A stretch of 33,226 nucleotides of DNA. Origin: an uncultured Planctomycetaceae bacterium. Lineage in GTDB: Bacteria > Planctomycetota > Planctomycetia > Pirellulales > Pirellulaceae. Below, one piece after another: positions 9,532 to 25,287 of this stretch; position 1 is the first letter of the stretch, and each line of letters opens with the position of its first letter. Position numbers and translations under genes: made by a program. Below the pieces are notes generated by a model, which ran no database searches, was not told where the DNA came from, and saw only the letters and a list, made by a program, of their open reading frames with translations. The stretch is taken from positions 1-33,226 of the forward strand of contig CAIYOB010001564.1 in the NCBI GenBank assembly GCA_903927685.1. The letters run 5' to 3'.

Positions 9532-10014
9532 ATGACCGGCTACGTCCCAATGACGCGTGAGGCCTACAACCGTCGCAAGGCGGAAGTCGATCGGTTGGAA
9601 CACGACGAGATCCCCCAGATCGCCGAGAAAATCGCCCAAGCACGCGGCGAGGGCGATCTGAGTGAAAACGCGGAGTACCATGCGCAGCGCGAGGCGATGG
9701 GCCTGTTGCAAGCCCGCATCAACCAGATGAAAAGCGAACTGGCCCGGGCCTCGATTGTCGATCCCGACAAACTGCCCAAGGACGAGGTCGCGTTCGGGGC
9801 GACCGTGACCGTCCGCGACCTGGATTACGACGACGAGGAGGAATTCACGCTCGTCGGCAAGGGCGACGAGGATTACGACAGCGGCAAGTACCTGATCACC
9901 AGCCCGGTCGGCCAAGGCCTGTTGGGCAAGAAGGTCGGCGACCAGGTGGAGATCGACGTCCCGAAGGGCAAGCTGCGCTTCGAGATCCTCGCCATCCGCT
10001 ACGATTCGATGTGA
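9532..10014 (+). CDS. greA: Transcription elongation factor GreA
   Basis: A 160-residue protein of normal GreA length. GreA enters the RNA polymerase secondary channel and stimulates cleavage of backtracked RNA. The N-terminal coiled coil (about 8-80) ends in the tip sequence [11 protein letters not shown], with Asp42 and Glu45 matching the essential acidic pair of E. coli GreA (41 and 44). The C-terminal domain has the usual IDPDKL-like linker, GATVTVRDL, and the [19 protein letters not shown] block. The ATG at 9532 follows a strong AGGGGAGAGG. A terminator hairpin directly upstream suggests that expression depends on read-through. The gene is convergent with the GH2 gene, 23 bases away. Confidence 0.97.
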
Positions 10015-10037
10015 CGGCTCCCGCTTGACCGCTCATT

Positions 10038-12287: not shown

Positions 12288-12415
12288 GAGGTCACCTTTA
12301 TCGTAATTTTGGGCATGTTTGGATGCTTGGCCGTCCATTTCCCCTCGACGAGCCTTGGCGTCGTATGGTAGTTTACTAGGTTCTAAGGTTCAGCGAATCT
12401 GAGGTCCTTGGCGAT

Positions 12416-12477
12416 TTTTGCGTCAAGACATGGCTTTTGATGTTAATACGCAAAGTAAACCCGTAAGTCCAATTTAC
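12416..12477. promoter_or_regulatory. Palindromic elements in the tpiA leader
   Basis: TTTGCGT (12416-12422) and ACGCAAA (12447-12453) form an inverted repeat with 24 bases between, and CGTAA (12461-12465) pairs with TTACG (12473-12477) just before the tpiA ribosome binding site. A weak promoter, TTGCGT with GTTAAT 18 bases later, overlaps the first repeat. This could be an operator or leader fold, but chance is possible at these arm lengths. Confidence 0.3.
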
Positions 12478-12491
12478 GAAGGAAGTCAGCT

Positions 12492-13250
12492 GTGAGACGC
12501 CCGTTTATTGCTGGAAACTGGAAGATGAACTTGAACCGCGCGGCTGCCGCTGCGTTGGTTGCGGACTTGAAGGCGAAGGTAAGCGGGATCAGCACCGTCG
12601 ACGTGGCCGTGTGTCCTCCGTTTGTCTACCTGCACGAGGTCGCGGGGGTGATCGCCGGTTCGCCCATTGCGCTGGGCGCCCAAAACATGTATCACGAGAA
12701 GGACGGGGCGTTCACGGGTGAAATCAGTGCGGCGATGCTGGTCGACGTGGGCTGCAAGTACGTCATCTTGGGGCACAGCGAGCGGCGGCGGATTATCGGC
12801 GAGACCAACGAGGCGGTCTGCCGCAAGGTGCACGCGGCGATCGCGGCCGGATTGGCTCCGATCGTGTGCGTTGGCGAGACGCTGCAGGAACGCGAGGCGG
12901 GCAAGACCTTCGACATCGTCCGCGAGCAGGTGTACGGTTCGTTGGCGGGGGTGAAGACCGAACAGGCGCAGAGCCTGGTGATCGCGTACGAGCCCGTGTG
13001 GGCGATCGGTACGGGCGTGAATGCATCGCCGGAGCAGGCGGAGGAAGTGCACGCCGATCTGCGGAATGCGTTGGAGAGCCGATTCGGCGCTGCCTTGGCG
13101 GCCCAGATCCGGCTCCAGTACGGCGGCAGCGTCAAGGCGTCCAATGCCAAGGAACTGCTGGCCAAGGAGAACATCGACGGAGCGTTGGTGGGTGGCGCGT
13201 CGCTGAAAGCGGCCGATTTCGCGCCGATTATCGAAGCGGCTCGCGGCTAG
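12492..13250 (+). CDS. tpiA: Triosephosphate isomerase
   Basis: A 252-residue cytosolic glycolytic enzyme that interconverts dihydroxyacetone phosphate and glyceraldehyde 3-phosphate. The start is GTG at 12492, after GAAGGAAG. All active-site parts are present: Asn9 and Lys11 in AGNWKMN, His95 in ILGHSERR, Glu167 in AYEPVWAIGTG (which also gives the mobile loop 6), and the phosphate-binding QYGGSVK and GALVGGASL segments near the C-terminus. Length is normal. It is followed after 123 bases by secG, an arrangement seen in many bacteria, and is divergent from the GH2 gene. Confidence 0.97.
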   Translation: MRRPFIAGNWKMNLNRAAAAALVADLKAKVSGISTVDVAVCPPFVYLHEVAGVIAGSPIALGAQNMYHEKDGAFTGEISAAMLVDVGCKYVILGHSERRRIIGETNEAVCRKVHAAIAAGLAPIVCVGETLQEREAGKTFDIVREQVYGSLAGVKTEQAQSLVIAYEPVWAIGTGVNASPEQAEEVHADLRNALESRFGAALAAQIRLQYGGSVKASNAKELLAKENIDGALVGGASLKAADFAPIIEAARG

Positions 13251-13373
13251 CGGCGCCGCGTCGGTACGAGAGGGTTCTGCCGCGCCGCCGCGGAAGGCTG
13301 GCGCGCGTGGCGGGGCGGGGAGACTACGGGCCGTGTATCGCGGCGAGAACGGAGAGTTTCAAGGGAGTTGCCT

Positions 13374-13940
13374 GTGTTGTCAGTACTGTTTGCGGCCGGC
13401 ACGTTTTTGCACTACCTGTTCGGGATCCTGATGTTCATCGTCGCGCTGTTCTTGATCCTGCTGGTCTTGGTCCAGCGCGGACGCGGCGGCGGTTTGACCG
13501 GCGCCTTGGGCGGGATGGGCGGTCAGAGCGCGTTCGGCACGAAAGCGGGTGACATGTTCACCCGCGTGACGATGGTCACGGCGGGCGTCTGGATTCTGCT
13601 GTGCATGTGCGCCATCTGGCTGCTGGGCTCGCAAGACGAATGGGGCGGCACAGGCAAGTCGGGGGCTCGCGGAGGCAATCGCGGTTCCACATCGGCCCCC
13701 GCACCGGTGACCCCCGGGGCGCCCAGTTCGACCGCGCCCAGTTCGACCGCGCCCAGTTCGACCGCGCCGGGCGCAGCCACGTCGCCGGCCCCGGCGTCGA
13801 GCGCTGTGCCGGCAGGTGACGCCAAGCCGGCTCCCGCCGCCGCAGTTCCCGCAGCCGCCGAGATGCCTGCCTCCTCGCCGGCCGAGGCGCCGGAGGCACC
13901 GGCCCCGGCGGCGCCCGAGGCTCCGAAGGCCAAGGAGTAG
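13374..13940 (+). CDS. secG: SecG, protein translocase subunit, with long Ala/Pro/Ser tail
   Basis: A 188-residue version of SecG, which helps SecYE move proteins across the inner membrane. GTG at 13374 is chosen because AAGGGAG ends six bases before it; a TTG at 13368 would touch the Shine-Dalgarno. The SecG core is complete: a first membrane helix (about 8-33), the cytoplasmic loop [27 protein letters not shown] with the family's glycine-rich signature, and a second helix (about 66-85). A normal SecG ends shortly after. Here about 100 more residues follow, made almost only of Ala, Pro, Ser, Thr, Glu and Gly, probably disordered. The tail contains three exact 15-base repeats. It follows tpiA and precedes the yicC operon. 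Confidence 0.92.
13721..13765 (+). repeat. Three exact 15-base tandem repeats inside secG
   Basis: The unit GCCCAGTTCGACCGC occurs three times without change (13721-13735, 13736-13750, 13751-13765). It keeps the reading frame and encodes Ala-Pro-Ser-Ser-Thr-like pentads in the disordered SecG tail. Exact identity, including third codon positions, points to recent slippage or duplication and likely length variation among strains. Confidence 0.9.
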
Positions 13941-14010
13941 TTGCTTCCAGCAGTCCCCGCCGGACGGAAAGCCTCCGGCGTAGTTCGCGTTCGACCCAGT
14001 TGGCGGTGCG

Positions 14011-14904
14011 ATGTCTGTCCCTTTGCTGAGCATGACCGGTCACGGCGAGGCCCACCGCCACGAAAACGGCGTTCGGGTGGCGGTCGAGGTCCGGACGGTC
14101 AACAACCGGTTCCTGAAGCTGTCGTTGCGGATCTCGGACGGCTTCGGCTGCCTCGAACCGATGATCGAAGCCGTGATCCGGGATCATCTCCGCCGCGGCT
14201 CGGTCACGGTCTCGATCCGTGTCGAATGCGAATCCTCGCCCGAAGATTTCCGGCTGAACGAGGTCGTCGTGGCCAGCTATTACCGCCAACTGCGCGAGTT
14301 GGCCCAGCGGGAAGGCGGGCTGCAGGAGATCCGCATCGATTCGCTGCTGGCTCTGCCGGGTGTGGTCGTCGAGAGCGAGAATCGGCGCACCGATACGGAC
14401 ACCGTGTGGCCGGTGCTCGAGAGAGCGTTGAACGAGGCCCTGGAGAACTTGTCCCGGATGCGGGCGGACGAGGGCGCGGCGATGGGCCGAGACCTGCACG
14501 CCAATTGCCAAGCCATCGATGCGGACTTGGAGCAGATCAGCCGACGCGCACCGCTGGTCGTGGACGCGTACCGCAAACGGTTGCTCGAACGGCTGAACAA
14601 ACTCCTGGAAGAGTTCGGTCTGGAGATCCAAGCGGCGGATGTCGTCCGCGAAGTCGGCTTGTTCACGGATCGGAGTGATATCTCCGAAGAAATCGTGCGA
14701 CTGCGGAGCCACCTGCAGCAGTTTGACAATATCGCCCGCACGGAACAGAACAGCGGCCGGAAACTCGAATTCCTGATCCAGGAAATGCTCCGCGAAACGA
14801 ACACGATCGGCTCCAAAGCGAACGATGCGGAAATCGCCCGTCATGTGGTCGAGATCAAGACGGCGATCGAACGCCTGCGAGAAATGATTCAGAACGTCGA
14901 ATGA
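14011..14904 (+). CDS. yicC: YicC/YloC family endoribonuclease
   Basis: A 297-residue member of the YicC/YloC family, of the usual length. E. coli YicC is an RNase linked to small-RNA turnover. The N-terminal domain starts with the family signature LLSMTGHGEAHR and continues through EVRTVNNRFLKLSLRIS. The C-terminal domain carries the best conserved stretch, GRKLEFLIQEMLRETNTIGSKAND, followed by the helix ending at the stop. ATG at 14011 gives the correct N-terminus. Its TGA overlaps the gmk ATG by four bases, so the two are translationally coupled. The yicC-gmk-rpoZ-coaBC order is widespread in bacteria. Confidence 0.95.
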   Translation: MSVPLLSMTGHGEAHRHENGVRVAVEVRTVNNRFLKLSLRISDGFGCLEPMIEAVIRDHLRRGSVTVSIRVECESSPEDFRLNEVVVASYYRQLRELAQREGGLQEIRIDSLLALPGVVVESENRRTDTDTVWPVLERALNEALENLSRMRADEGAAMGRDLHANCQAIDADLEQISRRAPLVVDAYRKRLLERLNKLLEEFGLEIQAADVVREVGLFTDRSDISEEIVRLRSHLQQFDNIARTEQNSGRKLEFLIQEMLRETNTIGSKANDAEIARHVVEIKTAIERLREMIQNVE

Positions 14905-15503
14905 CCGGTTTACCCCAGGGCAGACTTGTGATCATCTCGGGGCCCTCGGGCGCCGGGAAATCCACGGTGGTTCGGCAACTGCTGGACACGTGTCCGCTGC
15001 CGTTGCAGTTGAGCGTTTCGGCCACCACGCGCCACCCGCGACTTGGCGAACGCGATGGCGTGGAATACCATTTCGTGTCGCACGACGAGTTCTGCCGCCG
15101 CCGCGAGGCGGGTGATTTTCTGGAATGGAAAGAAGTCTTTGGACGCGGCGACCTGTACGGCACCCTGCGGAGCGAGACCACGGCCGGCTTGGCGGCGGGA
15201 AAATGGGTAATCCTGGAGATCGACGTCGAGGGAGCGATGGTGGTCCTGGACCAGCACCCGGACGCCATCACGATTTTCGTTCACCCCGGCTCGATGGAAG
15301 AGCTCGAACACCGGCTGCGCGGCCGGGGTACCGAGTCGGCCGAGTCGATCCAGCGGCGGCTGGCGGTCGCACGCCGCGAAATGGAATGCAAGAACCGTTA
15401 TCGTTTCGAAGTGCTTAACGATTCCAAGGACCGGGCGGTCCAGGAAATTTGCGACATACTTCTGTCACACGCCGGAGACCTCTACGCATGCTCGACGAAC
15501 TGA
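14901..15503 (+). CDS. gmk: Guanylate kinase
   Basis: A 200-residue kinase that phosphorylates GMP to GDP with ATP. The P-loop GPSGAGKS is at residues 14-21. The GMP-binding region is seen in [22 protein letters not shown] and in [16 protein letters not shown], and the IDVEGAMVV strand is the expected Walker B-like element. The lid region includes [17 protein letters not shown]. The start overlaps the yicC stop by four bases. Its own 3' end overlaps the rpoZ start by 16 bases, so all three are read from one message. Confidence 0.96.
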
Positions 15504-15751
15504 AGGAAGAAGCGATTGTCAACAAAGTCGGCGGCCGGTTCAAGCTGTCCACCCTGATCCAGAAGCGGCTGGTCCAGTTGAATCAGGGCAGCCGCCCGTT
15601 GGTCGCCATGAAGACGGCGGACCGGATGAAGGTCGTCCTGCAAGAGATCGCCCAGGACAAGATCTACCTGGACGCCTCGAACCAGGTGCGCGTCACTGGC
15701 GAGATGCCGGACATCCGCGAAGAGCCTGAACTGAATTTCGGCGATCTATGA
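15488..15751 (+). CDS. rpoZ: RNA polymerase omega subunit
   Basis: An 87-residue omega subunit, which supports assembly of the beta' subunit. The ATG at 15488 lies inside the end of gmk (16-base overlap) and has GGAG ten bases upstream; a start 13 codons earlier has no such support. The core helix [16 protein letters not shown] (about 12-27) and the region [23 protein letters not shown] match omega. The C-terminal part is acidic. Its TGA overlaps the coaC ATG by four bases. Confidence 0.92.
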
Positions 15752-16308
15752 AGGGCCGCGAGCTGATCATCGGCGTCACCGGCGGCATTGCGGCTTACAA
15801 GACCGCAGCCCTGGTCAGCCGTCTGGTGCAAGCCGGGGCGGGCGTGAGCGTGGTGATGACCGCCGCCGCAACCCGCTTCGTCGGGCCGGTGACGTTCAAG
15901 GCGTTGACCGGGCGGCCCGTGGGCACCAGCGTGTTCAGCCAACCGGAATTGCCGTTGGGTGCGCATATTGAACTGGCCCAGAAGGCCGACTTGATGTGCG
16001 TGGCCCCGGCGACGGCCAATTTCCTGGGCAAAGCGGCTCAAGGGATCGCAGACGATCTGCTGAGCACCCTGTACTTATCGTTCGCCGGGCCGATCTACGT
16101 CGCGCCGGCGATGAACACGGTCATGTGGAACAAACCCAGCGTCCAGCGCAACGTCCAGCAACTGCGGGCCGATGGCGTGCTGGTGATCGACCCCGACGAG
16201 GGTTGGCTCAGCTGCCGGGCGCAAGGGGCTGGCCGGATGGCTGATCCCGAGGCGATTTTCGAAACCCTGCGGGCCCGCTTGAGCACCCCCGAGAGCCCGC
16301 GATCCTGA
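15748..16308 (+). CDS. coaC: Phosphopantothenoylcysteine decarboxylase (CoaC), stand-alone
   Basis: A 186-residue flavoprotein that removes CO2 from 4'-phosphopantothenoylcysteine in coenzyme A synthesis. The FMN-binding start is [12 protein letters not shown] (9-20). His73 in GAHIELAQ is the expected catalytic histidine. PAMNTVMW (120-127) is the family signature for substrate binding. Cys156 in [12 protein letters not shown] fits the conserved proton-donating cysteine. In most bacteria this domain is the N-terminal half of a fused CoaBC protein. Here it ends after about 180 residues, and the ligase is a separate gene 26 bases downstream. The ATG overlaps the rpoZ stop by four bases. Confidence 0.93.
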
Positions 16309-16334
16309 CCCACCCGCGCGCGTCCGCCACATAC

Positions 16335-16976
16335 ATGGCTCGCATCCTGATCACCTCCGGACCGACCCGCCAGTACCTGGACCCGGTGCGCTATTTGACC
16401 AACGGCTCCAGCGGACGAATGGGCGCCGCCTTGGCCCGGGCGGCCCTGGACGCCGGCCACGAGGTGACGATCGTCAGCGGGCCCGTGCAGATCGAGTATC
16501 CCGCGGCCGCGAAACAGATCTCCGTCGTTTCCACCGAGGACATGCGCGACGCCTGCTGCGAGCTCTATCCGGATTGCGACGGCGCGATCGGAGCCGCCGC
16601 TCCGAGCGACTATCGGCCCCAGCTGGTGCAGGCGCAGAAGATCGTCAAGACCGGCCAGCCGCTGGTGCTGGAATTGGTCGAGACGCCGGACGTGATCGCC
16701 ACGCTGGGCGCCAAGAAACGCCCGGGCCAATGGCTGGTCGGCTTTGCCCTGGAAACCCACGACCGACACATTCGGGCGTTGCTCAAACTGGAAAAGAAGT
16801 GCTGCGACCTGATGGTCTTGAACGGCCCCGAGGCCATGGACGCGCTGAACAACGCGGTGGAGATCATGGATCGTCGCGGCCAGTTGCTGAGGTCCCTGGC
16901 GGGGTCCAAGGAACAAGTCGCCCGGGGCATCCTGCGAGTCATTCAGCACGAGCTGGTTCATCCCACTCAACCTTGA
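16335..16976 (+). CDS. coaB: Phosphopantothenate-cysteine ligase (CoaB), stand-alone
   Basis: A 213-residue ligase that joins cysteine to 4'-phosphopantothenate using a nucleotide triphosphate. It precedes the CoaC reaction in coenzyme A synthesis. The nucleotide-binding start is ILITSGPTRQYLDPVRYLTNGSSGRMG (4-30), with the family's DPVR and SSG elements. Later landmarks are AAPSDYRPQ (about 88-96), QKIVKTG with the conserved lysine, LVETPDVIATLGAKK, GFALET, and the ALNNAVEIMDR segment matching the NVDNFS-like end of the family. It has its own ATG and no CoaC domain, so the usual fusion is genuinely split here and not broken: both genes are complete. Confidence 0.92.
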   Translation: MARILITSGPTRQYLDPVRYLTNGSSGRMGAALARAALDAGHEVTIVSGPVQIEYPAAAKQISVVSTEDMRDACCELYPDCDGAIGAAAPSDYRPQLVQAQKIVKTGQPLVLELVETPDVIATLGAKKRPGQWLVGFALETHDRHIRALLKLEKKCCDLMVLNGPEAMDALNNAVEIMDRRGQLLRSLAGSKEQVARGILRVIQHELVHPTQP

Positions 16977-17000
16977 CGCAAGCGGACTGGGACGCAGGCC

Positions 17001-18014
17001 ATGGAGCAAGTGCTGGTTACCGGCGGCAGCGGATTCATCGGGCGGAACCTGGTCGACGAACTCACTCGCCGCGCGTGCCGCGTCCGCTGTCTGGTGCGCC
17101 GGACTTCTTCCAGCGAACACCTGCGCGACGCCGACGCCGAACTCTGCTTCGGCGACGTGACTCAGCCGGATAGTCTGCTCCAGGCGACGCGCGGAGTGGA
17201 TACGGTGTTTCACGTGGCCGGCCTGGTCGCCGCCTTGCGAACCAAGCAACTGGAGCAGGTCAACGGCGAAGGCACGTGGAATGTCGCCCGCGCGTGCGCC
17301 GCGCAGGCCAGGCCGCCCGTGCTGGTTGTGGTTTCGTCGTTGGCCGCAGCCGGGCCGTCGGCGGACGGAACACTGCGGCGGGAATCCGATCCGCTGATTC
17401 CTGTTTCGGCTTACGGGCGCAGCAAGCGAGCCGGCGAGGCTGCCGCGGCCGAATGGGCGGATCGCGTCCCGACGACCATTGTCCGGCCCGGCATCGTGTT
17501 CGGGCCGTGGGACCGGCTGATGCTGCCCGTGTTCCGGTCGATCGCCAAGCTGGGGATCCATCCGGTGCCGACGTTTGCCCCGCCGCCGCTGTCGCTGATT
17601 CACGTCCAGGACCTGGCTGACATCCTCGTGCGCGCGGCCGAATCCGGTCGCCGCGTGAATCGGCCGGAGCAAGGGGATTCCGCCGCAGGATACTACTCGG
17701 CCTGCGCCGCCCAGTATCCCAACTACGCCGAACTAGGCCGGATGACAGCCGCTGCCGTGGGGCGGCGGCATCTATTCCTGTTCCACATGGCGGAACCGCT
17801 GCCGTGGCTCGTCGCGGGGGTCACCCAGCTGATCACCCGCCTGGTTCGCCAGCCGAGCGTCGTGACCGTGGACAAGATGCGCGAGAGCATCCAACCATCC
17901 TGGGCGGCGTCCACGCGAGCCATCCGCACAGAACTCGGCTTTACGGAGCCGTACACCCTGCAGCAGCGGCTGAACCAGACCGCCGCCTGGTATCGCGAGC
18001 ACGGCTGGATCTAG
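17001..18014 (+). CDS. NAD-dependent epimerase/dehydratase (extended SDR)
   Basis: A 337-residue extended short-chain dehydrogenase. The NAD-binding motif GGSGFIG is at 8-14, and the catalytic pair Tyr138 and Lys142 is in SAYGRSKRAGE, with the preceding VVSSLAAAGPS strand giving the serine. The later VRPGIVFGPWD and SLIHVQDLADILVRAAE blocks are typical of sugar epimerases and of 3-beta-hydroxysteroid dehydrogenase-like members. Substrate cannot be fixed. It starts 24 bases after coaB and is probably the last gene of that operon, in a place where many bacteria have priA. Its stop shares the bases CTAG with the stop of the opposing Gfo/Idh/MocA gene. Confidence 0.88.
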   Translation: MEQVLVTGGSGFIGRNLVDELTRRACRVRCLVRRTSSSEHLRDADAELCFGDVTQPDSLLQATRGVDTVFHVAGLVAALRTKQLEQVNGEGTWNVARACAAQARPPVLVVVSSLAAAGPSADGTLRRESDPLIPVSAYGRSKRAGEAAAAEWADRVPTTIVRPGIVFGPWDRLMLPVFRSIAKLGIHPVPTFAPPPLSLIHVQDLADILVRAAESGRRVNRPEQGDSAAGYYSACAAQYPNYAELGRMTAAAVGRRHLFLFHMAEPLPWLVAGVTQLITRLVRQPSVVTVDKMRESIQPSWAASTRAIRTELGFTEPYTLQQRLNQTAAWYREHGWI

Positions 18015-19393
18015 ATCTCGTACGGCTTCCGCTGTGGGCGGGACTGCATCGCCCGGGCCTCTTCATCGCCGACGATCTCCTCGCGCTGCGGATCCCAGCG
18101 GATCTTGCGGCCCAGGCGAATCGAGATATTGGTCAGGTGGCAGGACGTCACCGTCCGGGCCTCGACGTCGACCGAGGCCACGGGCTGTTTGCGGCTCCGC
18201 ACGCAGTCGAAGAAGTTGCCCATGTGGTCGCGGCTGGGCCGGGCCCGCCAGGCGTCCGCCGGCAACGGTTTCTCCTTCAACTCTTCGACGGCCGCCCCGT
18301 ACAGTCCGCCTCGATTCACGAACACCCGGCCCTGCTCGCCGACCAGCATGACGCCGTTGCGTTCGCCCTGCTTGACTTCGTCCGGCACCTCGCCGTCGCC
18401 GAACAGCCAGGCGATCTGCTCGGGCGTGACCGGTTCGCACGGTTCGACTTCGCCATAGATCCGCTGCTCGCCCAACGCCGAATAGAACAGGACCTCGACG
18501 CCGTTGGCGAACTTCATCCGGGAGAAGAACCGGTCGGGCGTGTTGTAGCACTCGGCGGCTTGCGGCCGGGCGGCGTTGGGGAACAGGCCCCGCGCCTCGA
18601 CCTCGACCGGCCCGGTGTCCTCGCAGTCCAGCGCCCAGTGCGCGATGTCCACGTGGTGGTTGCCCCAATCGGTGACGATGCCGCCGGCGTACTCGTACCA
18701 CCAGCGGAAGATCCGGTGGCAGCGATAACGCGTGTAGTAGTGTTCCGGCGCCTGCCCCTGGTACAGGTCCCAGTTCAGTTTCGCGGGAAGCGGTTCCTCG
18801 GCAAACGGCCCGCCCTTGGTGCTGAAGTAGGGCAGCGCGACCCAGACCTGTTTCAGCCGGCCGATCCGCCCGTTGCGAACCAACTCGACGGCCGTCTGGA
18901 ATTCCGCCTCGCTGCGCTGCTGGGTGCCGGTCTGGAAGACGCAGCCCGTCTCATGGACCACCCGCCGCAGCAACTTGGCTTCTTCGATCGTCAGCGTCAG
19001 CGGCTTCTCGCCGTACACGTCCTTGCCCGCCCGCAGGGCGTCGACATTGATCTTCGTATGCCAATGATCCGGCGCGCCCTGGATGATCACGTCGATGTCC
19101 TTGCGGTCCAGCACGCGGCGGTAGTCCTGAACCACGTCCGCCCGAGGCGCGACAGCGGCCTGAAACGCTTCGGCGTGCCCCAGGTCCACGTCGCAGACCG
19201 CCACGATGTCGCCGAACCGGGCCGCCTCCCGCGAGACGGCCCCGCCGCGTCCTCCGACGCCGATGCAACCGACGGTCGGCCGGTCGCCGGCCGCCGCTCG
19301 AACTTTGGAGGCGGCGGGATTCACCGTGGTCATTGCCACCAGCGAAGCCGCACCGGTGGTCTGCAGAAAACGCCGTCGGGAAATCGGAGTCAT
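18011..19393 (-). CDS. Tat-exported Gfo/Idh/MocA family oxidoreductase
   Basis: A 460-residue protein. ATG at 19393 follows GAGGTG and opens a twin-arginine signal: SRRRFLQTTGAASLVA (5-20). The frame continues open well upstream but without support. The Rossmann part begins at VGCIGVGGRGG (41-51), and the family motif Glu-Lys-Pro is at 129-131 (YGEKPLTLT). GAPDHWHTKI precedes it. The C-terminal part has GGIVTDWGNHHVDIAHWAL, typical of planctomycete members. Tat export implies that it folds with bound NAD(P) in the cytoplasm before transport. Such proteins are often involved in sugar oxidation or reduction in the periplasm. The exact substrate is unknown. Its stop lies inside the end of the SDR gene. 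Confidence 0.92.
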   Translation of the reverse strand: MTPISRRRFLQTTGAASLVAMTTVNPAASKVRAAAGDRPTVGCIGVGGRGGAVSREAARFGDIVAVCDVDLGHAEAFQAAVAPRADVVQDYRRVLDRKDIDVIIQGAPDHWHTKINVDALRAGKDVYGEKPLTLTIEEAKLLRRVVHETGCVFQTGTQQRSEAEFQTAVELVRNGRIGRLKQVWVALPYFSTKGGPFAEEPLPAKLNWDLYQGQAPEHYYTRYRCHRIFRWWYEYAGGIVTDWGNHHVDIAHWALDCEDTGPVEVEARGLFPNAARPQAAECYNTPDRFFSRMKFANGVEVLFYSALGEQRIYGEVEPCEPVTPEQIAWLFGDGEVPDEVKQGERNGVMLVGEQGRVFVNRGGLYGAAVEELKEKPLPADAWRARPSRDHMGNFFDCVRSRKQPVASVDVEARTVTSCHLTNISIRLGRKIRWDPQREEIVGDEEARAMQSRPQRKPYEI

Positions 19394-19622
19394 CAGAGCA
19401 CCTCGCGTGGGTAAGAAAGCCGCCATTATTCCGCGCCGGCCGAGACGAAACAAGCCAGCCGGGCAAGAGCCGCGAGGGCCACGACTTCCGCTCCGGACCA
19501 GCCCTGCGACGGTCGCCTGTCCGCGTTCACAAGCCGCGAGAATCCCGCAAGTTGATCTTGCCAGCGACGACGTTTTTCGCGACAAGTACCCGCCCTTGTC
19601 CCGCTCGGAGGAAACCGTCTCG

Positions 19623-20225
19623 ATGTGCCAATTCCGCTTCGCCATCCTGCTGCTGGCAACGCTGGCAACCCTCGTCGAAGTTGCCGGGGGCCAGGAACAA
19701 CTCTCGCCGTGTCCCGCGTCCTCAGCCCGGCTGCCGATCCGAGTGGTCGAGCGGTCTGCGCAGGCGGCCGCGACCCTGACCGCTCCCGCGGCGGACGCAG
19801 CGTTGCCGCTGGCGCCGCTGGCAAAGCCTGCCGCCGCAACGGACGGACGGTTCCGCCAGTCCTCGACCGGCGACGCCGTCTCCAAAGTGGCCACCAGTTT
19901 GGCCGTCGTGCTGGGCTTGTTCCTGCTGGGCATGCTGTTGTTACGCCGCGGCCACGCCCGGCGCGGCGGCACGCTGCCGGGCGAGGTCGTGCAGACCTTG
20001 GGCCGAGCCCCGCTGAGCGGCCGCCAAGAAATGCACCTGGTCCGCGTGGGCAACAAGCTGCTACTGCTGTCCGTAACGCCCACCGGCGCGGAGACGCTGA
20101 CCGAGATCACCGAGCCGGACGAGATCGATCGGCTGGCCGGGATCTGCCGGCAGAGCCACCCCGATAGCATTACGGCGTCCTTTCGCGAGATTCTCTGGCA
20201 ATGCGGCCAGACGCAGCGGGCCTGA
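19623..20225 (+). CDS. fliO: Flagellar export-gate protein FliO
   Basis: A 200-residue protein. ATG at 19623 has GGAGGAA nine bases upstream. It begins with a signal peptide (to about residue 23), followed by an Ala/Pro-rich stretch, a membrane helix (about 89-107), a short basic RRGHARRGG, and a cytoplasmic FliO domain (GEVVQTLGRAPLSGRQEMHLVRVGNKLLLLSV). FliO helps FliP assemble into the export gate. The family is weakly conserved, but place settles the call: fliP starts 18 bases downstream. The 229-base gap upstream, shared with the divergent oxidoreductase gene, has no clear sigma28 or sigma54 promoter that I can see. Confidence 0.85.
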   Translation: MCQFRFAILLLATLATLVEVAGGQEQLSPCPASSARLPIRVVERSAQAAATLTAPAADAALPLAPLAKPAAATDGRFRQSSTGDAVSKVATSLAVVLGLFLLGMLLLRRGHARRGGTLPGEVVQTLGRAPLSGRQEMHLVRVGNKLLLLSVTPTGAETLTEITEPDEIDRLAGICRQSHPDSITASFREILWQCGQTQRA

Positions 20226-20243
20226 CCGGAGGCGGAGACCGAC

Positions 20244-21173
20244 ATGACGCACGCAGGCTCGCAGGACACGTCGCCCACAACGGCCGGACCGCGGTTGCCC
20301 GGCGACGCGTTTCGGCCGCCGCGACTGGGCCTCCTGGTCGCCGCCATCCTGGTCGCCGCCGGGCTGACCGTCCCGGCCAGCGCCCAAGCCCCCTCGGCGA
20401 GCGAGTCCGCCGGGACGGGGGCCGCTGGGGTCGAATCCGCTGCGGTCGAACCGGCCGCCGCGCCGCCCCCGTCGCCGCTGACGGCGAATCCCGCGGATTG
20501 GGTCAGCCGCGAGCGGCTCGGCGCCACGCTGCAAATGGTCTTGACGATGAGCGTCCTGAGCTTGGCGCCTGCCTTGCTGATGATGACCACCAGCTTTGTC
20601 CGGATCGCCGTCGTTCTGGGCCTGCTCCGCCAGGCCCTGGGCATCGGCCAATTGCCCTCGAACCAGGTGATCACCTCGATCGCCATGTTCATGTCGCTGC
20701 TGATCATGACGCCCGTCTGGACCGACGTCTACCGGGACGCGGTCCAGCCGTACACGGAACCGCACAGCACCATGACGCTGGAGCAAGCCTGGCAGGCCGG
20801 TGTGCGGCCGATCCGCAAATTCATGAGCCGCCAGATCGAGATCGTGGGCAACAGCGAGGACGTGTGGCTGTTCTACCAGTACCTGCCGGAACCGACCGCG
20901 GCCCCCAGCACGTACGATGACGTACCGCTGCAAGTCCTGCTGCCGGCGTTCGTGCTCAGCGAACTCAAGACCGCCTTCCTGATCGGCTTCCAGATCTACC
21001 TGCCCTTCGTCATCGTCGACCTCGTGGTCTCGAGTGTCACCATGTCGATGGGCATGGTCATGCTGCCGCCGACGATGATCTCGTTGCCGATGAAACTGTT
21101 GCTGTTCGTCCTGGTCGACGGCTGGAACCTGGTTGTCGGCATGCTGATGTCCAGCTTTGCGCCGTACACGTGA
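20244..21173 (+). CDS. fliP: Flagellar export-gate protein FliP
   Basis: A 309-residue membrane protein that forms the core ring of the flagellar type III export gate with FliQ and FliR. Conserved segments are plain: LMMTTSFVRIAVVLGLLRQALG, LPSNQVITSIAMFMSLLIMTPVW, VLLPAFVLSELKTAFLIGFQIYLPF and MVMLPPTMISLPMKLLLFVLVDGW. It is about 60 residues longer than typical FliP. The extra part is at the N-terminus: 27 hydrophilic residues before the signal/membrane helix (about 28-48), then an Ala/Pro/Ser-rich stretch to residue 80. The ATG at 20244 has GGAG upstream. A later start cannot be excluded, but none has better support. Confidence 0.96.
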   Translation: MTHAGSQDTSPTTAGPRLPGDAFRPPRLGLLVAAILVAAGLTVPASAQAPSASESAGTGAAGVESAAVEPAAAPPPSPLTANPADWVSRERLGATLQMVLTMSVLSLAPALLMMTTSFVRIAVVLGLLRQALGIGQLPSNQVITSIAMFMSLLIMTPVWTDVYRDAVQPYTEPHSTMTLEQAWQAGVRPIRKFMSRQIEIVGNSEDVWLFYQYLPEPTAAPSTYDDVPLQVLLPAFVLSELKTAFLIGFQIYLPFVIVDLVVSSVTMSMGMVMLPPTMISLPMKLLLFVLVDGWNLVVGMLMSSFAPYT

Positions 21174-21209
21174 CGCAGCAAGCATGACGGCGGCGCCCAA
21201 CCAATTGCC

Positions 21210-21251
21210 AACTGAGAACGGACAACGGACAACGGAGAACTGACAACGGAA
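21210..21251 (+). repeat. Six tandem 7-base repeats before fliQ
   Basis: Six units fitting AAC(T/G)GA(G/C/A) follow one another without gaps: AACTGAG (21210), AACGGAC (21217), AACGGAC (21224), AACGGAG (21231), AACTGAC (21238), AACGGAA (21245). The last base is the A of the fliQ start codon. The array fills most of the 77-base fliP-fliQ spacer and supplies the only ribosome-binding-like bases (CGGAG, 13 bases from the ATG). Confidence 0.85.
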
Positions 21252-21526
21252 TGGACGCACAGCAAGCGATCGACTTGAGCCGGGAAGCGATCACGACCAC
21301 GTTGTGGCTGGGAGCGCCGTTGCTGCTGGTCGCCCTGGCGGTGGCGGTGCTGGTCGGATTCGTCCAAGCCTTGTTTCAGATGCATGATCCGACGATCAGC
21401 TTTGTTCCCAAGCTGGTCGCAACGCTGGCGGCCGGGGCGCTGTGTTTGCCGTGGCTGCTGGACCGGCTGGTCGAGTACTCGCAGGTCCTGATCACTCACA
21501 TTCCTCAGACCCTTTCCGGCGGGTGA
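21251..21526 (+). CDS. fliQ: Flagellar export-gate protein FliQ
   Basis: A 91-residue protein with two membrane helices (about 16-42 and 52-75), the normal size and form of FliQ. The conserved middle is FVQALFQMHDPTISFVPKL, close to the family's QAATQINEQTLSFIPK pattern. The start ATG is joined to the end of a 7-base repeat array, so its Shine-Dalgarno is made by the array. fliR follows after six bases. Confidence 0.95.
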   Translation: MDAQQAIDLSREAITTTLWLGAPLLLVALAVAVLVGFVQALFQMHDPTISFVPKLVATLAAGALCLPWLLDRLVEYSQVLITHIPQTLSGG

Positions 21527-21532
21527 GCGGCG

Positions 21533-22333
21533 ATGTCCGCATTGGTTGACCTATCACGTCAGCAGGTGCTGGTGTTCGCGTTTGTGCTGGCCCGCGTCGG
21601 CGGCCTGACGTGTTTTGCGCCGGCGTTGGATGCGCGATTTGCGCCCAAGTCGGCACGACTCGTCTTGGCCCTGGCCGTAACGCTGCTGGTGGCTCCGGTC
21701 TATTGGACCCAACCGGCCGCGCCGGCGGGTGCGGGGGCCCAACTGTTGCTGCCCCTGTGCCGCGAGGCCGTGCTGGGGCTGATCCTGGGACTGACGCTAC
21801 TGATTCTGGTCAGCGGGCTGCGCGCGGCGGGACAGATGATCGGCCAGCTGAGCGGCATGTCGATGGCCGAGATCATCGATCCGGACAGCGGCAGCAGTTC
21901 GCCGCTGTTAGGCGAGTTATTTGCGATCCTGGCCACCGCCGTGTTCCTGGTGACCGGCGGCCATCGCCAGTTGCTGGCCGGCTTGTTGGACACGTTCGCC
22001 TGGATGCCGCCGGGACAAGTGGGCTTCTCGACGGGCCTGGTGGCGACGCTGAGCGAAGTGGCCGGGCACAGCCTGGTGCTGGCCGTCCGTGTGGCCGCGC
22101 CGGTCGTCGTCACGCTGGTCTTGACGGCCTTGATCGTGGGCCTGGTCGCGCGACTGGCGCCCCAGTTCAACGCCCTGGCGTCGGGTTTAGGTGTGAACAG
22201 CCTGGTCGCCTGGGCGACCTTGTCACTGTGCCTCGCGTCCGTGGCCTGGGCCTTCCAGGATCAGACGCAGTTCTCGCTGGATACCGTGTGGAATGCGATC
22301 GACACGTTGCGGCCGGGCTCGCCGGCAAAGTGA
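21533..22333 (+). CDS. fliR: Flagellar export-gate protein FliR
   Basis: A 266-residue membrane protein with about six hydrophobic segments. FliR sits with FliP and FliQ in the export gate. Recognisable segments are LARVGGLTCFAPALDARFAPKSARLVLALAVT near the N-terminus, LREAVLG-like CREAVLGLILGL, and GQMIGQLSGMSMAEIIDPDSGSSSPLLGELF, which is the most conserved part. It ends seven bases before flhB. Length is in the usual range. Confidence 0.95.
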   Translation: MSALVDLSRQQVLVFAFVLARVGGLTCFAPALDARFAPKSARLVLALAVTLLVAPVYWTQPAAPAGAGAQLLLPLCREAVLGLILGLTLLILVSGLRAAGQMIGQLSGMSMAEIIDPDSGSSSPLLGELFAILATAVFLVTGGHRQLLAGLLDTFAWMPPGQVGFSTGLVATLSEVAGHSLVLAVRVAAPVVVTLVLTALIVGLVARLAPQFNALASGLGVNSLVAWATLSLCLASVAWAFQDQTQFSLDTVWNAIDTLRPGSPAK

Positions 22334-22340
22334 GTAAGCG

Positions 22341-23378
22341 ATGTCCGACGAATCCGCCGAACGCATCCATCCGGCGACGCCGCATCACCGCCAGCTGGCC
22401 CGGCAGCAGGGGTACGTCGCCAAGAGCTATGACCTGCCCTGGGCGGGCGTCTTTCTGGCCGGTGTGCTGCTGCTCGGGGGTGGCGATCTGTTCGGAGCCT
22501 TGGCCGATTGTGTGCGTCAACCGCTGAGCGGCGCGACGGTGGTGCCGACGGATGCCCGAGTGGCCTTCGAGGCGGGCAACAGCGCTTTCCTGCGGCTCGG
22601 ACGCAGCCTGGCCCTCTGCTGCGGCGGCTGCCTGGCCGTCGCGGTATTCGGTCACCTGCTGCAGACGGGATTCCAGCCGCAGCCGCAGCGACTGGCGCCG
22701 GACCTCTCGCGGTTGGATCCGCTGGCCACTGCCGCACGGATGCTGTCCGGCGACGCGGCGGCGCGGCAGGTGCTGACACTGCTGAAACTGGCGGCGTTGG
22801 GCGGCGTTGCGGCCTGGGCGGTCTGGGGCCAGCGGGAGGAGATCCTGGCCCTGGGCGGCTTGCCCCCCGTCTTGCTCGTCTCCGGCTTGGGCGAATTGCT
22901 CAGCGGGATCTGCCTCAAGCTCGGCGGTGTGCTCGTGGTCGTGTCCGCGGTCGACTACGGTTTCCAACGCTGGCGCTACGAACGTTCGTTGCAGATGACA
23001 CCCGAGGAAGTGCGGGAGGAAACGCGGAACCAGACCGGCGATCCGGGCGTCCAGCGGCGCCGGCGGCAAACGCAACGCGACTTGGCGCTGGGCCACCTGG
23101 AGGCGTCAGTGGCCCAGGCCCAGTTGGTGCTGGTCCAAGGCGACACGCTGGCCGTGGCCATCCAGTACGACGGACAGGCCGCTTCCGCGCCGCTGGTGGT
23201 GGCCAAAGGACGCGGCGATGCAGCCGCCCGGATTCGCCAGATCGCCGAGCGGGCTAAGATCCACATCGCCGACGAGGCGCGTTTGGTCCAGCGGATCGCC
23301 CGCCAGACGACCGTCGGCGCTCCGGTGGCTGCCGAGCACTATCGGGCGCTGGCGAACGTCTGGCACGCGCCCCGTTGA
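22341..23378 (+). CDS. flhB: FlhB-like export switch protein lacking the NPTH cleavage motif
   Basis: A 345-residue protein with the FlhB layout. The N-terminal PATPHHRQLARQQGYVAKS is the usual start. Four hydrophobic segments follow (to about residue 210), then the cytoplasmic linker MTPEEVREETRNQTGDP and the C-terminal domain with SAPLVVAKGRGDAAARIRQIAE. In known FlhB/SctU proteins the chain cuts itself between Asn and Pro of NPTH, just before a YAVAL-like strand. Here the aligned residues are Gln266-Gly-Asp-Thr269 before LAVAIQYD (codons at 23136-23147, read directly). No Asn-Pro exists nearby. The rest of the domain is intact, so this is not a frameshift. It is the last gene of the fliOPQR-flhB run; flhA is not in the window. 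Confidence 0.9.
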   Translation: MSDESAERIHPATPHHRQLARQQGYVAKSYDLPWAGVFLAGVLLLGGGDLFGALADCVRQPLSGATVVPTDARVAFEAGNSAFLRLGRSLALCCGGCLAVAVFGHLLQTGFQPQPQRLAPDLSRLDPLATAARMLSGDAAARQVLTLLKLAALGGVAAWAVWGQREEILALGGLPPVLLVSGLGELLSGICLKLGGVLVVVSAVDYGFQRWRYERSLQMTPEEVREETRNQTGDPGVQRRRRQTQRDLALGHLEASVAQAQLVLVQGDTLAVAIQYDGQAASAPLVVAKGRGDAAARIRQIAERAKIHIADEARLVQRIARQTTVGAPVAAEHYRALANVWHAPR

Positions 23379-23387
23379 AGCCCAGGC

Positions 23388-25154
23388 TCACACCCGCGGC
23401 GTCATCCGCAACTCGGCCGACGGCTTCGGGATTCTGCCCTCTTGCAGACGTTTGCGCGCCAGCCACAGCGCATGGCAGCGCATCAGGTCCTCGACGTCCT
23501 GTTCGGCCGCAGCGTTCCATTGGCCCGTCTGCTCGTACTCCGCGGGGTCATCGCGGTACCGCTCTAAGAAGCTCTTCAGCGGTTCGTCACCCGGCGCCGC
23601 CTGGGTGTACGACTGGCCCAGATCGTCCAGCATCTCTTCCAAGCGGGCGACGGCGACCAGGTACCGCCGCCAGCGATGGGCGTCCCAGTCGAAGTCCGTG
23701 CGGAGCATCTGACCGGCCTGCCGGCCGTAGTCGGACAGCTGGTCAATGATCTCCGGCGGCATATTCAGGTTCAAGCCGCCCTCGTACTCGGCCAAGCGGA
23801 CGTGCACGATCCGTTCCCGATAGCCGGGCAGGACCGTCTGCAGGTTCTCGCGCCATTCCTGCATTGCGTCCAGCATCGCGCCCAGGAACTGGCCCAGCGA
23901 CCCGATATGGCGGAACGGCAGCAACAGGCCGTGGCCCGCCTTCCTCGGCAGGTCGATGCGTTGGTCCCGGTGAACCTGCGGATCAAAGGCCTCCAGCTTG
24001 ACGCCGAACGTCGGCCAGCGCGGCCAGATCGCGTCGAAGAAGTGGATCGGAAAGTTGCTGCTGATCCCGCCGTCGGAAAACCACTGCGGACGCGGGCGCT
24101 GCTGCTCGGCTTCGTCGGGCTGACGGAAATCGCGCGCGTGCAGCGGCACGGCGGCCAGGAGCACCGGAAAGCTCAGGCTCATCCGCACGGCGACGATGAC
24201 CGGCAAGTCGTCCGGCTCGGGCAGATACCGATATCCGGGATCTCGGCTGAATTCGTCCGACTTCTTGACCATCCAGTCGACGATGCGTGGCGGGAACAAA
24301 CGCCGAAACTCGTCCGGCCGGAACAGGAACTTGCGGTCCTCAAAGGGCAGCCGATACGGGCGGCCCTCGGTCAGGTTCGTGGTCATCACCAGCAGGCGGA
24401 TCGCGGGATCCGCCGAATTCCCGCCGTGCAAGTCGCCAAAGGTCAGCGGCTGGTCCGGCGGGCGTCCGGCGAGTCCCTGGACGTCCGCGACCGAGTCCAA
24501 GACGTCGGCCAGCCAATCGGTCAGGGCTGGCTGGTGGCGTTCGGAGCCCGGCTGCGTCGTCCCGGGACAGAGGCCGTAGAACTGCCGCGGCAGATCGTGG
24601 ACCAGCGCGCGGCCGACCCGCCACGCCACGGCCAGCGGCACGCCCAGGGCCGCCGCCCCCAGCGCGGGCCAGACGACCTGGCCCGTGACTAGTCCGCACG
24701 CGGCCAGCGCGACCGCGCCGGCCAACAGGCCGCCCAACAGCGAAGCCAGCCAGTATCCGTAGACCAAGCGGATCAGGATCGTCGCCAGCTTCAGGCACCA
24801 CGGCTTGCCGCCCAACGCCGCCAGCAACGCGTGAAACAACGGCCGCAGGCACGGCGCGGGTTGGAACAGCGTCAGCAGGATCCGATTCGTCCGGCCGGCA
24901 TACTCCAGCATGCGTGCAAAGCCACCGCGGGCCCGGCCGAACTCGGCCGCCGCCGCCAGTCCCGCGGCGATCGCCCCGGCACTGGTTCCCCCCACGTTCT
25001 TGAAGCGGTACTTTTCGGCCAGTTCGGCCACCGCCCGCGGGTACACCACACCGCTGGTGATCCCGCCCTTCATGACAATGTTGCAGTAGGGCTTGTCCGC
25101 TGCCGGTTCGGTTGGGACTGCGCTGGGCGGTGCGAGCTCTGGGGAAGATGACAT
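23388..25154 (-). CDS. Membrane-associated patatin-like phospholipase
   Basis: A 588-residue protein counted from ATG 25154, which has only a weak purine-rich site; an ATG 23 codons earlier is possible. The patatin dyad is visible: Ser58 in GGTSAGA and Asp361 in SDGGISSN, far apart because of an insertion. The oxyanion segment is MKGGITSGVVYP rather than the usual GGGxRG, a variant seen in some bacterial patatins. The insertion holds a strongly hydrophobic stretch (about 120-185) that likely forms two or three membrane helices. The protein should cleave acyl chains from lipids at the inner membrane. Its end is nine bases from the flhB stop (convergent). A TACAAT -10 box lies at 25202-25207 on the minus strand, without a good -35. 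Confidence 0.85.
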   Translation of the reverse strand: MSSSPELAPPSAVPTEPAADKPYCNIVMKGGITSGVVYPRAVAELAEKYRFKNVGGTSAGAIAAGLAAAAEFGRARGGFARMLEYAGRTNRILLTLFQPAPCLRPLFHALLAALGGKPWCLKLATILIRLVYGYWLASLLGGLLAGAVALAACGLVTGQVVWPALGAAALGVPLAVAWRVGRALVHDLPRQFYGLCPGTTQPGSERHQPALTDWLADVLDSVADVQGLAGRPPDQPLTFGDLHGGNSADPAIRLLVMTTNLTEGRPYRLPFEDRKFLFRPDEFRRLFPPRIVDWMVKKSDEFSRDPGYRYLPEPDDLPVIVAVRMSLSFPVLLAAVPLHARDFRQPDEAEQQRPRPQWFSDGGISSNFPIHFFDAIWPRWPTFGVKLEAFDPQVHRDQRIDLPRKAGHGLLLPFRHIGSLGQFLGAMLDAMQEWRENLQTVLPGYRERIVHVRLAEYEGGLNLNMPPEIIDQLSDYGRQAGQMLRTDFDWDAHRWRRYLVAVARLEEMLDDLGQSYTQAAPGDEPLKSFLERYRDDPAEYEQTGQWNAAAEQDVEDLMRCHALWLARKRLQEGRIPKPSAELRMTPRV

Positions 25155-25287
25155 CGGTTGATCTCGTGCGAGGTTGAGTTGACGCGGCCGGCCGACCTTC
25201 GATTGTACACGCTGTCCCGGCACAAAAAACGATTGGCGCGGGGGTCTTCGAAGTTGCGCGTTTTCAAGGCCCCCACCAGCCTCATGC

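Follow-up and report, generated by a model that had tools for sequence, protein, structure and literature searches.

An FlhB without its Asn-Pro self-cleavage site in a planctomycete lineage that apparently lacks the flagellar axial genes

The FlhB protein encoded on a stretch of 33,226 nucleotides from an uncultured Planctomycetaceae bacterium (contig CAIYOB010001564.1; "the window" means this whole stretch) has lost the Asn-Pro bond at which members of its family cut themselves, and the loss is fixed in the clade of its closest relatives. The gene ends a fliO-fliP-fliQ-fliR-flhB run on the plus strand (19206-23378), which had been described in the initial annotation and to each gene of which Pfam profiles gave a match. 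The same annotation had read Gln-Gly-Asp-Thr (QGDT) at the cleavage loop and had concluded that this FlhB is unable to switch by Asn-Pro cleavage; the reading is confirmed by alignment and the conclusion stands on established chemistry. We regard it as rather probable that the window FlhB is part of a flagellum-derived export gate which survives without rod, hook, ruler and filament and which performs no substrate switch.

A protein search with FlhB gave 238 matches, the best 120 of which were aligned. Residues 266-269 of the window protein align to the columns that hold NPTH or NPTE (119 other relatives aligned), and the flanks on both sides of the loop are intact. Among these best 120 matches, 25 relatives show 57-75% identity, after which identity falls to 38%, with two fragments further down the ranking (P0047, P0091) as exceptions. 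None of the 23 readable loops among these 25 relatives (P0002-P0026; P0017 and P0019 are unreadable) contains Asn-Pro, and with the window's own protein the 26 closest proteins provide 24 readable loops, all without Asn-Pro and mostly QGTS or QGAS. Counted over 24 rows, in which P0019 is a gap, the first site is Q in 20 and E, D or R in one each, the second is G in 22 and D in one, and the fourth is S in 19. The clade is supported by a Shimodaira-Hasegawa-like approximate likelihood ratio test (SH-aLRT) value of 100 for 24 rows in a tree from the FlhB membrane part only. Judged by these sequences, the clade has a new loop consensus Q-G-(T/A)-S, of which the Asp-Thr of the window would be a local variant. 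In the family of the nearest genome the motif is mostly NPTE (76 rows, P0064 being one of them, versus 24 NPTH rows), which suggests that the last motif residue is flexible and that Asn-Pro is what flagellated members keep. A base error or misframe at the loop is ruled out by the 23 relatives with a readable loop that share the loss, and a cut site elsewhere in the window FlhB is ruled out as well, there being no Asn-Pro anywhere in the protein. The PF01312 profile is matched across both the membrane and the cytoplasmic parts, and by its sequence the window FlhB is not a self-cleaving switch, although it is homologous to such switches over its whole length. Self-cleavage by another route, at Gln-Gly through Gln cyclisation or at the Asp of QGDT, is extremely unlikely: the Gly found at site 2 in 22 of the 23 readable clade rows speaks for a cut at Gln-Gly but may simply suit the turn, sister proteins carry E, D or R at site 1, Asp at site 3 occurs in the window protein only, and Gln cyclises far more slowly than Asn.

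The fold of the protein is intact in an AlphaFold2 model from 78 rows, with a mean predicted local distance difference test (pLDDT) score of 85.3, which replaced an earlier, poor model from 21 close rows (mean pLDDT 61.0). The model contains the cytoplasmic domain fold of the FlhB/SctU family, and the QGDT loop connects strands 262-266 and 270-275. The top fold matches are EscU mutants, in part because the chains of native crystals are both cut and shorter. The early-substrate pocket, defined by A285/P286/A340/L343 in Escherichia coli numbering (one below that of Salmonella), reads A-P-A-W in the window as compared with A-P-A-L, so that three of four residues are kept; A-P-A is kept in 21 of the 23 readable clade rows, with mostly Trp at the fourth site.

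The nearest genome (G001; locus L001), which belongs to the same FlhB clade, is that of Candidatus Anammoximicrobium sp., a metagenome-assembled genome (MAG) of about 9.7 Mb and the sole genome found for its genus. It retains the export-gate genes: it has homologues of the window's FliO, FliP, FliQ and FliR, an FlhA that scores 797.6 bits with nearly the whole profile covered, and a single PF01312 match, hence one FlhB. Divergent FliF and FliG adjoin a HATPase protein, and FlhF and an FlhG-like ParA protein come after flhA. A gene of this genome clusters with the sigma-70-family protein of genome G136, and from its place beside flhG we take this sigma factor to be sigma-28-like. The Pfam profile searches of G001 gave no match for flagellin, for rod/hook proteins (Flg_bbr_C), for FliK or for FliI (T3SS_ATPase_C), each of these searches being positive in 4 of 14 controls (E. 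coli, Bacillus subtilis, Caulobacter and Thermotoga). Because none of these has a match in G001, the flagellum itself is seemingly missing in the lineage. The genome check proposed in the initial annotation, run here in G001, thus found flhA and no match for a second flhB, fliK or flagellin. The gene of this small HATPase-domain protein immediately precedes the divergent fliF (L165:8474-8980 in G001, L054:2386-2994 in G136), and its cluster covers 16 genomes.

The association of cut-site loss with loss of the flagellum is repeated across the family of G001, of which 149 genomes were surveyed, their completeness being unstated and absence being judged by Pfam profiles. FlhB was found in 146 of them and flagellin in 103. 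In 39 of the 149 genomes no FlhB read has Asn-Pro (22 with full-length proteins, 17 with the switch domain gone), and flagellin has no match in 37 of these 39 versus 5 of the 101 genomes having an Asn-Pro FlhB, the other nine being unread or without FlhB. By class, flagellin is found in 74 of the 79 genomes with Asn-Pro FlhB only, in all 22 that have in addition a second FlhB lacking Asn-Pro or truncated (14 of these second copies were read; the other 8, some of them fragments, are known from search rows only), in 2 of the 22 with only full-length FlhB lacking Asn-Pro, and in none of the 17 with truncated FlhB only. The searches for rod/hook proteins, FliK, FliI and FlhA covered 68 genomes of the family. 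Rod/hook proteins and FliK were each undetected in 37 of the 38 genomes without Asn-Pro that were tested (of 39; G056 was left out). FliI is kept in 16 of the 38 (12/21 with full-length and 4/17 with truncated FlhB), and FlhA is matched in 67 of the 68 genomes, with G120 as the miss and only a fragment in G095. The replacement loops are diverse and include AGTS, AGSS, GRSG, DPND, TPHE, SPTE, SGTE, DPDG, HESG, HQAG, APDG and VPDG among others.

The 22 family genomes with two FlhB types (e.g., G038, G057, G074 and G148) hold two flagellar-type export systems each. One system has an NPTH FlhB from a clade of its own; the genomes concerned have flagellin and, in the 13 searched, also FliK and rod/hook matches. 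The other system has an old-type FlhB that has lost Asn-Pro or the C-terminal domain.

On an FlhB tree built without the loop and the C-terminal domain, Asn-Pro versus the rest requires 12 changes, the full-length state without Asn-Pro 16, the truncated state 7 and all three states 19; these counts leave out two contig-end rows (G133, G011) and are approximate, several rows being long branches and the tree being of a quick kind. The starred branches force at least 8 changes for Asn-Pro versus the rest, at least 8 for the full-length state without Asn-Pro and at least 4 for the truncated state, with the two contig-end rows still included. Nested losses are seen in G047 and G092, which lie within NPTE flagellates, and in G114 and G040 beside G129. 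A paired comparison yielded five starred pairs; in 164 of 200 pairings, four of the pairs agreed and no pair opposed (median p 0.125).

Of 31 truncated FlhB rows, 29 have a genuine stop after the linker and before the cleavage site, whereas the apparent truncations of G133 and G011 are ruled out as contig ends. No detached switch domain rose above noise within 1.5 kb downstream (three forward frames, 31 rows). In a sample of the phylum, FlhB occurs in 85 of 149 genomes (including G001 and G020, which are also in the family survey), and in the loci retrieved from it Asn-Pro is kept in 74 of the 75 readable new loops, the exception being APNG in G230; the last two sites vary (NPTT, NPTS, NPIY, NPVR, NPHE, NPHR, NPPH). 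The 75 loops leave out G216, four stand-alone C-terminal domains, the contig-cut gene of G167 and a broken gene in G237. Nine further truncated FlhBs were found in this sample (L224-L232). Seven of these loci share the order fliP-fliQ-fliR-flhB(truncated)-flhA-flhF, and six of the seven also have flhG and the sigma gene, L227 ending at a contig edge; L231 and L232 are second copies whose genomes also have a full FlhB, and in the 19 kb retrieved for them none of these genes was found.

Several further FlhB-related forms were observed. Elsewhere in the phylum, the flhB of L267 (G237) is interrupted by numerous stops and changes of frame and represents a copy in genuine decay. In the 275-amino-acid protein of L271 (G216), the FlhB C-domain is matched twice, the loop read has GSDN, and a membrane part was not detected. 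Stand-alone FlhB C-terminal domains that start near the cleavage site are common in other planctomycetes (L268, L269, L270 and L272 were read, and about 20 more search rows exist); we take them to be FlhX-like. C-domain-like matches also lie inside open frames of more than 970 amino acids (G121:C376:3958-4299, G121:C644:2990-3211). Beside the truncated FlhB of G006 stands a 233-amino-acid FliG (L066:13070-13771), and because its C-terminal domain is only a remnant, the complex of this genome probably does not rotate. In 13 loci (L052-L056, L064, L066, L068, L069, L071, L072, L175 and L179) a gene of the sulfotransferase family lies near flhB or flhA, in L054 between the two; Pfam identified it (PF13469) only in L052 and L054. 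Clustering of the neighbours gave no clear substrate, the recurrent neighbours being the sulfotransferase, the HATPase protein and the sigma factor.

These observations can be joined as follows. In the lineage of the window, which would be Anammoximicrobium-like, the gate may have been kept while the axial structure was lost. Where there is neither a hook to measure nor a filament to switch to, Asn-Pro self-cleavage would no longer have been under selection; the loop would have changed to Q-G-(T/A)-S across the clade, and the FlhB chain would have stayed in one covalent piece. The gate would be locked permanently in an "early" mode, with one substrate class crossing the inner membrane, a prediction based on the intact C-terminal domain and on the retention of three of the four pocket residues; truncated relatives without that domain would be in a permanent "late" mode. 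Both locks, the early one in the window and the late one in the truncated relatives, are transferred by analogy from Salmonella, and we infer that the gate is active and that its substrate is non-flagellar. A gate without a switch is favoured over a flagellum with another switch because either lock can be tolerated where only one class of substrate is exported. The initial annotation had offered three options: the export of a single substrate class fits best, another switch found no support, and a second canonical FlhB elsewhere did not show up in G001, which has a single match (although 22 other genomes of the family have two FlhB types). Its overall reading is thus supported in part.

A number of points weigh against the switch-less gate. 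A gene set like that of G001 is presumed for the organism of the window, and G001 itself is a MAG in which absence rests on Pfam profiles. The family comparison is not independent by descent, and the pair test is too small. The fourth pocket residue of the window FlhB is Trp instead of Leu, and FlhB shares 59% identity with that of G001 versus 71-78% for FliP, FliQ and FliR, a lower conservation compatible with relaxed constraint. Asn-Pro occurs without detectable flagellin in five genomes (G009, G028, G033, G122 with NPSG, and G137). G017 (NSTH), which groups with the clade that has the second, NPTH-type flagellum, has FliK and one rod/hook match; at its locus L083 the Pro of the cut site has become Ser in a genome that keeps FliK, a natural case in which cutting at Asn-Ser could be assessed. 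In G002 (APDG), an additional FlhA and a FliG both score strongly, and this genome may encode a flagellum that is partly assembled. Flagellin without an FlhB match is seen in G043 and G100, and rod and FliK matches without a flagellin match in G063; from these incomplete sets it follows that assemblies miss flagellar genes. Weak second PF01312 matches in G017, G037 and G095 were left unread. Finally, G056 (STIE) and G086 (HESG) lack Asn-Pro yet have a flagellin match, which in G056 is weak (1.6e-6). These two genomes, and the fact that the window shows part of the gene set only, would also suit a normal flagellum in the organism of the window with another switch, for instance proteolytic release of the uncut domain. 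Such a flagellum is very unlikely in view of the missing axial matches in G001, the near-constant Asn-Pro in the new loops of the phylum sample, and G086 itself, in which neither rod/hook proteins nor FliK gave a match.

An evolutionary relic, in which the whole set decays after loss of the flagellum and the motif loss reflects relaxed selection only, is quite unlikely as well. In its favour, FlhB changes faster than FliP, FliQ and FliR, the loop replacements differ among lineages, FliI and the C-terminal domain are missing in places, FliF and FliG score weakly, and the phylum sample includes the broken flhB of G237. However, the reading frames are open in the 39 genomes without Asn-Pro, FlhA is nearly universal in the genomes searched, and between the window and G001, where FliP is 77.7% and FliR 71% identical, codon differences in FliP, FliQ, FliR and FlhB are most frequent at the third position (FliP, 0.18/0.10/0.35 at positions 1/2/3). 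Moreover, the old-type FlhB persists beside a separate flagellar FlhB in 22 genomes (14 copies read), and the gene order is conserved in the seven divergent loci with truncated FlhB.

It is also unlikely, though less so, that FliF, FliG, FlhF, FlhG and the gate form a membrane scaffold (a polar landmark, a cell-envelope platform or a nanotube "CORE" platform) which is no longer an exporter and in which the switch domain is merely structural. This would agree with flhF and flhG adjoining flhA in G001 and in six divergent loci, with FliI being undetected in G001 and in 25 of the 68 genomes searched, with the nanotube role and the hat-shaped structure related to the flagellar type III secretion system reported in excerpts of PMC9380563, and with the requirement of FlhA, FlhB, FliI and FliR for twitching in non-flagellate Lysobacter (excerpts of PMC7277350). 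Against it, the substrate-facing C-terminal domain and most of the docking pocket are kept in the clade, and the FlhA of G001 covers nearly the whole profile.

If the switch-less export gate is correct, these planctomycetes are a natural test of the purpose of FlhB self-cleavage, since genomes without the axial genes show a decayed cut site or a dropped domain alongside a retained gate. We propose tentatively, with somewhat less than even confidence, that Planctomycetota hold a widespread non-flagellar export machine, composed of FliF/FliG(/FliN)-FliOPQR-FlhB*-FlhA with FlhF, FlhG and an own sigma factor and devoid of rod, hook, ruler and filament, in which both terminal switch states (an uncuttable, early-locked FlhB and a domain-less, late-locked FlhB) would have been fixed repeatedly, also beside a true flagellum in one cell, and which would export a single substrate class. 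The substrates of such a possible system might be traced via the retained sigma factor, and naturally "locked" gates are supplied for structural and secretion work.

The coordinates of the window genes are listed in Table 1. The FliO-like protein is 62% identical over 179 amino acids to the product of the gene at the matching place in Candidatus Anammoximicrobium. No further flagellar gene was found among the 20 other window open reading frames scanned with Pfam, and injectisome secretin, needle and translocon proteins did not turn up in the Pfam scan of the 25 open reading frames of the window, no search aimed at them having been made. The next gene after flhB, convergent with it on the minus strand (23388-25223), encodes a patatin-like phospholipase (PF01734). 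Upstream of the export operon, positions 9532-18014 hold the housekeeping genes GreA/GreB, YicC, guanylate kinase and an epimerase, and also two separate flavoprotein genes (PF02441, PF04127).

Table 1. Export-gate genes of the window and parts of its FlhB.
Feature	Position	Strand	Remarks
FliO-like gene	19206..20225	+	Start codon uncertain; Pfam FliO domain in final third (PF04347, 43.2 bits, on 19512-20225)
fliP	20244..21173	+	PF00813, 239 bits
fliQ	21251..21526	+	PF01313, 82 bits
fliR	21533..22333	+	PF01311, 174.5 bits
flhB	22341..23378	+	345 amino acids, without Asn-Pro self-cleavage site; PF01312 (Bac_export_2), 250.6 bits, residues 7-340
FlhB transmembrane part	22341..22985	+	Residues 1-215
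FlhB C-terminal cytoplasmic (switch) domain without cut site	23121..23375	+	Residues 261-345
FlhB loop Gln266-Gly267-Asp268-Thr269, replacing Asn-Pro-Thr-His/Glu	23136..23147	+	Codons caa ggc gac acg, in frame within the 345-amino-acid open reading frame; alignment, model

FlhB, its self-cut and the laboratory mutants are already well known, and a non-flagellate that has flagellar export genes has been described before. Chlamydia pneumoniae is said to carry FliI, FlhA and FliF as flagellar export remnants without a flagellum. Non-flagellated Lysobacter enzymogenes likewise retains export genes without a flagellum, and excerpts of that paper hold nothing on FlhB cut-site loss (PMC7277350); both species belong to phyla other than that of the window. 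According to excerpts of Abby and Rocha, non-flagellar type III secretion systems (NF-T3SS) occur only in Chlamydiae, Proteobacteria and Verrucomicrobia, and Planctomycetes are named among the phyla with flagella (PMC3459982). Such systems (injectisomes) have a homologous gate, but the neighbours found here are of the flagellar type (FliO, FlhF, FlhG and FliG). In the open-access literature we found no account of a natural FlhB without Asn-Pro, or truncated, tied to axial-gene loss in planctomycetes; subscription papers were mostly outside this scope and novelty is not proven. The word "planctomycet" is absent from excerpts of PMC12199754 and PMC13063649. With the FlhB/SctU family (YscU, SpaS, EscU; PF01312) the window protein shares the membrane part, the alpha-beta cytoplasmic domain, the gene position after fliR and three of four pocket residues, but without Asn-Pro at the loop the known self-cut is impossible. 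It resembles the laboratory non-cleaving mutants (Salmonella FlhB N269A, EscU N262A/P263A and YscU N263A) in being one uncut chain; unlike them it occurs in nature, is fixed throughout a clade and belongs to a lineage that seems to have neither hook nor filament. In Salmonella, N269A prevents cutting and locks export in the rod/hook mode (excerpts of PMC3708937). When the cleaved FlhB C-terminal domain and Fluke are both lost, the gate is constitutively in the late state; without that domain the early substrate FlgE is not exported, and cutting has been proposed to let the domain be removed (excerpts of PMC13344023, 2026). The 29 truncated planctomycete FlhBs, which end before the cleavage site, are comparable to the Salmonella flhB with a selected stop at codon 258 described in excerpts of the same paper (PMC13344023), from which they differ in being natural, and a matching "late lock" is predicted for them.
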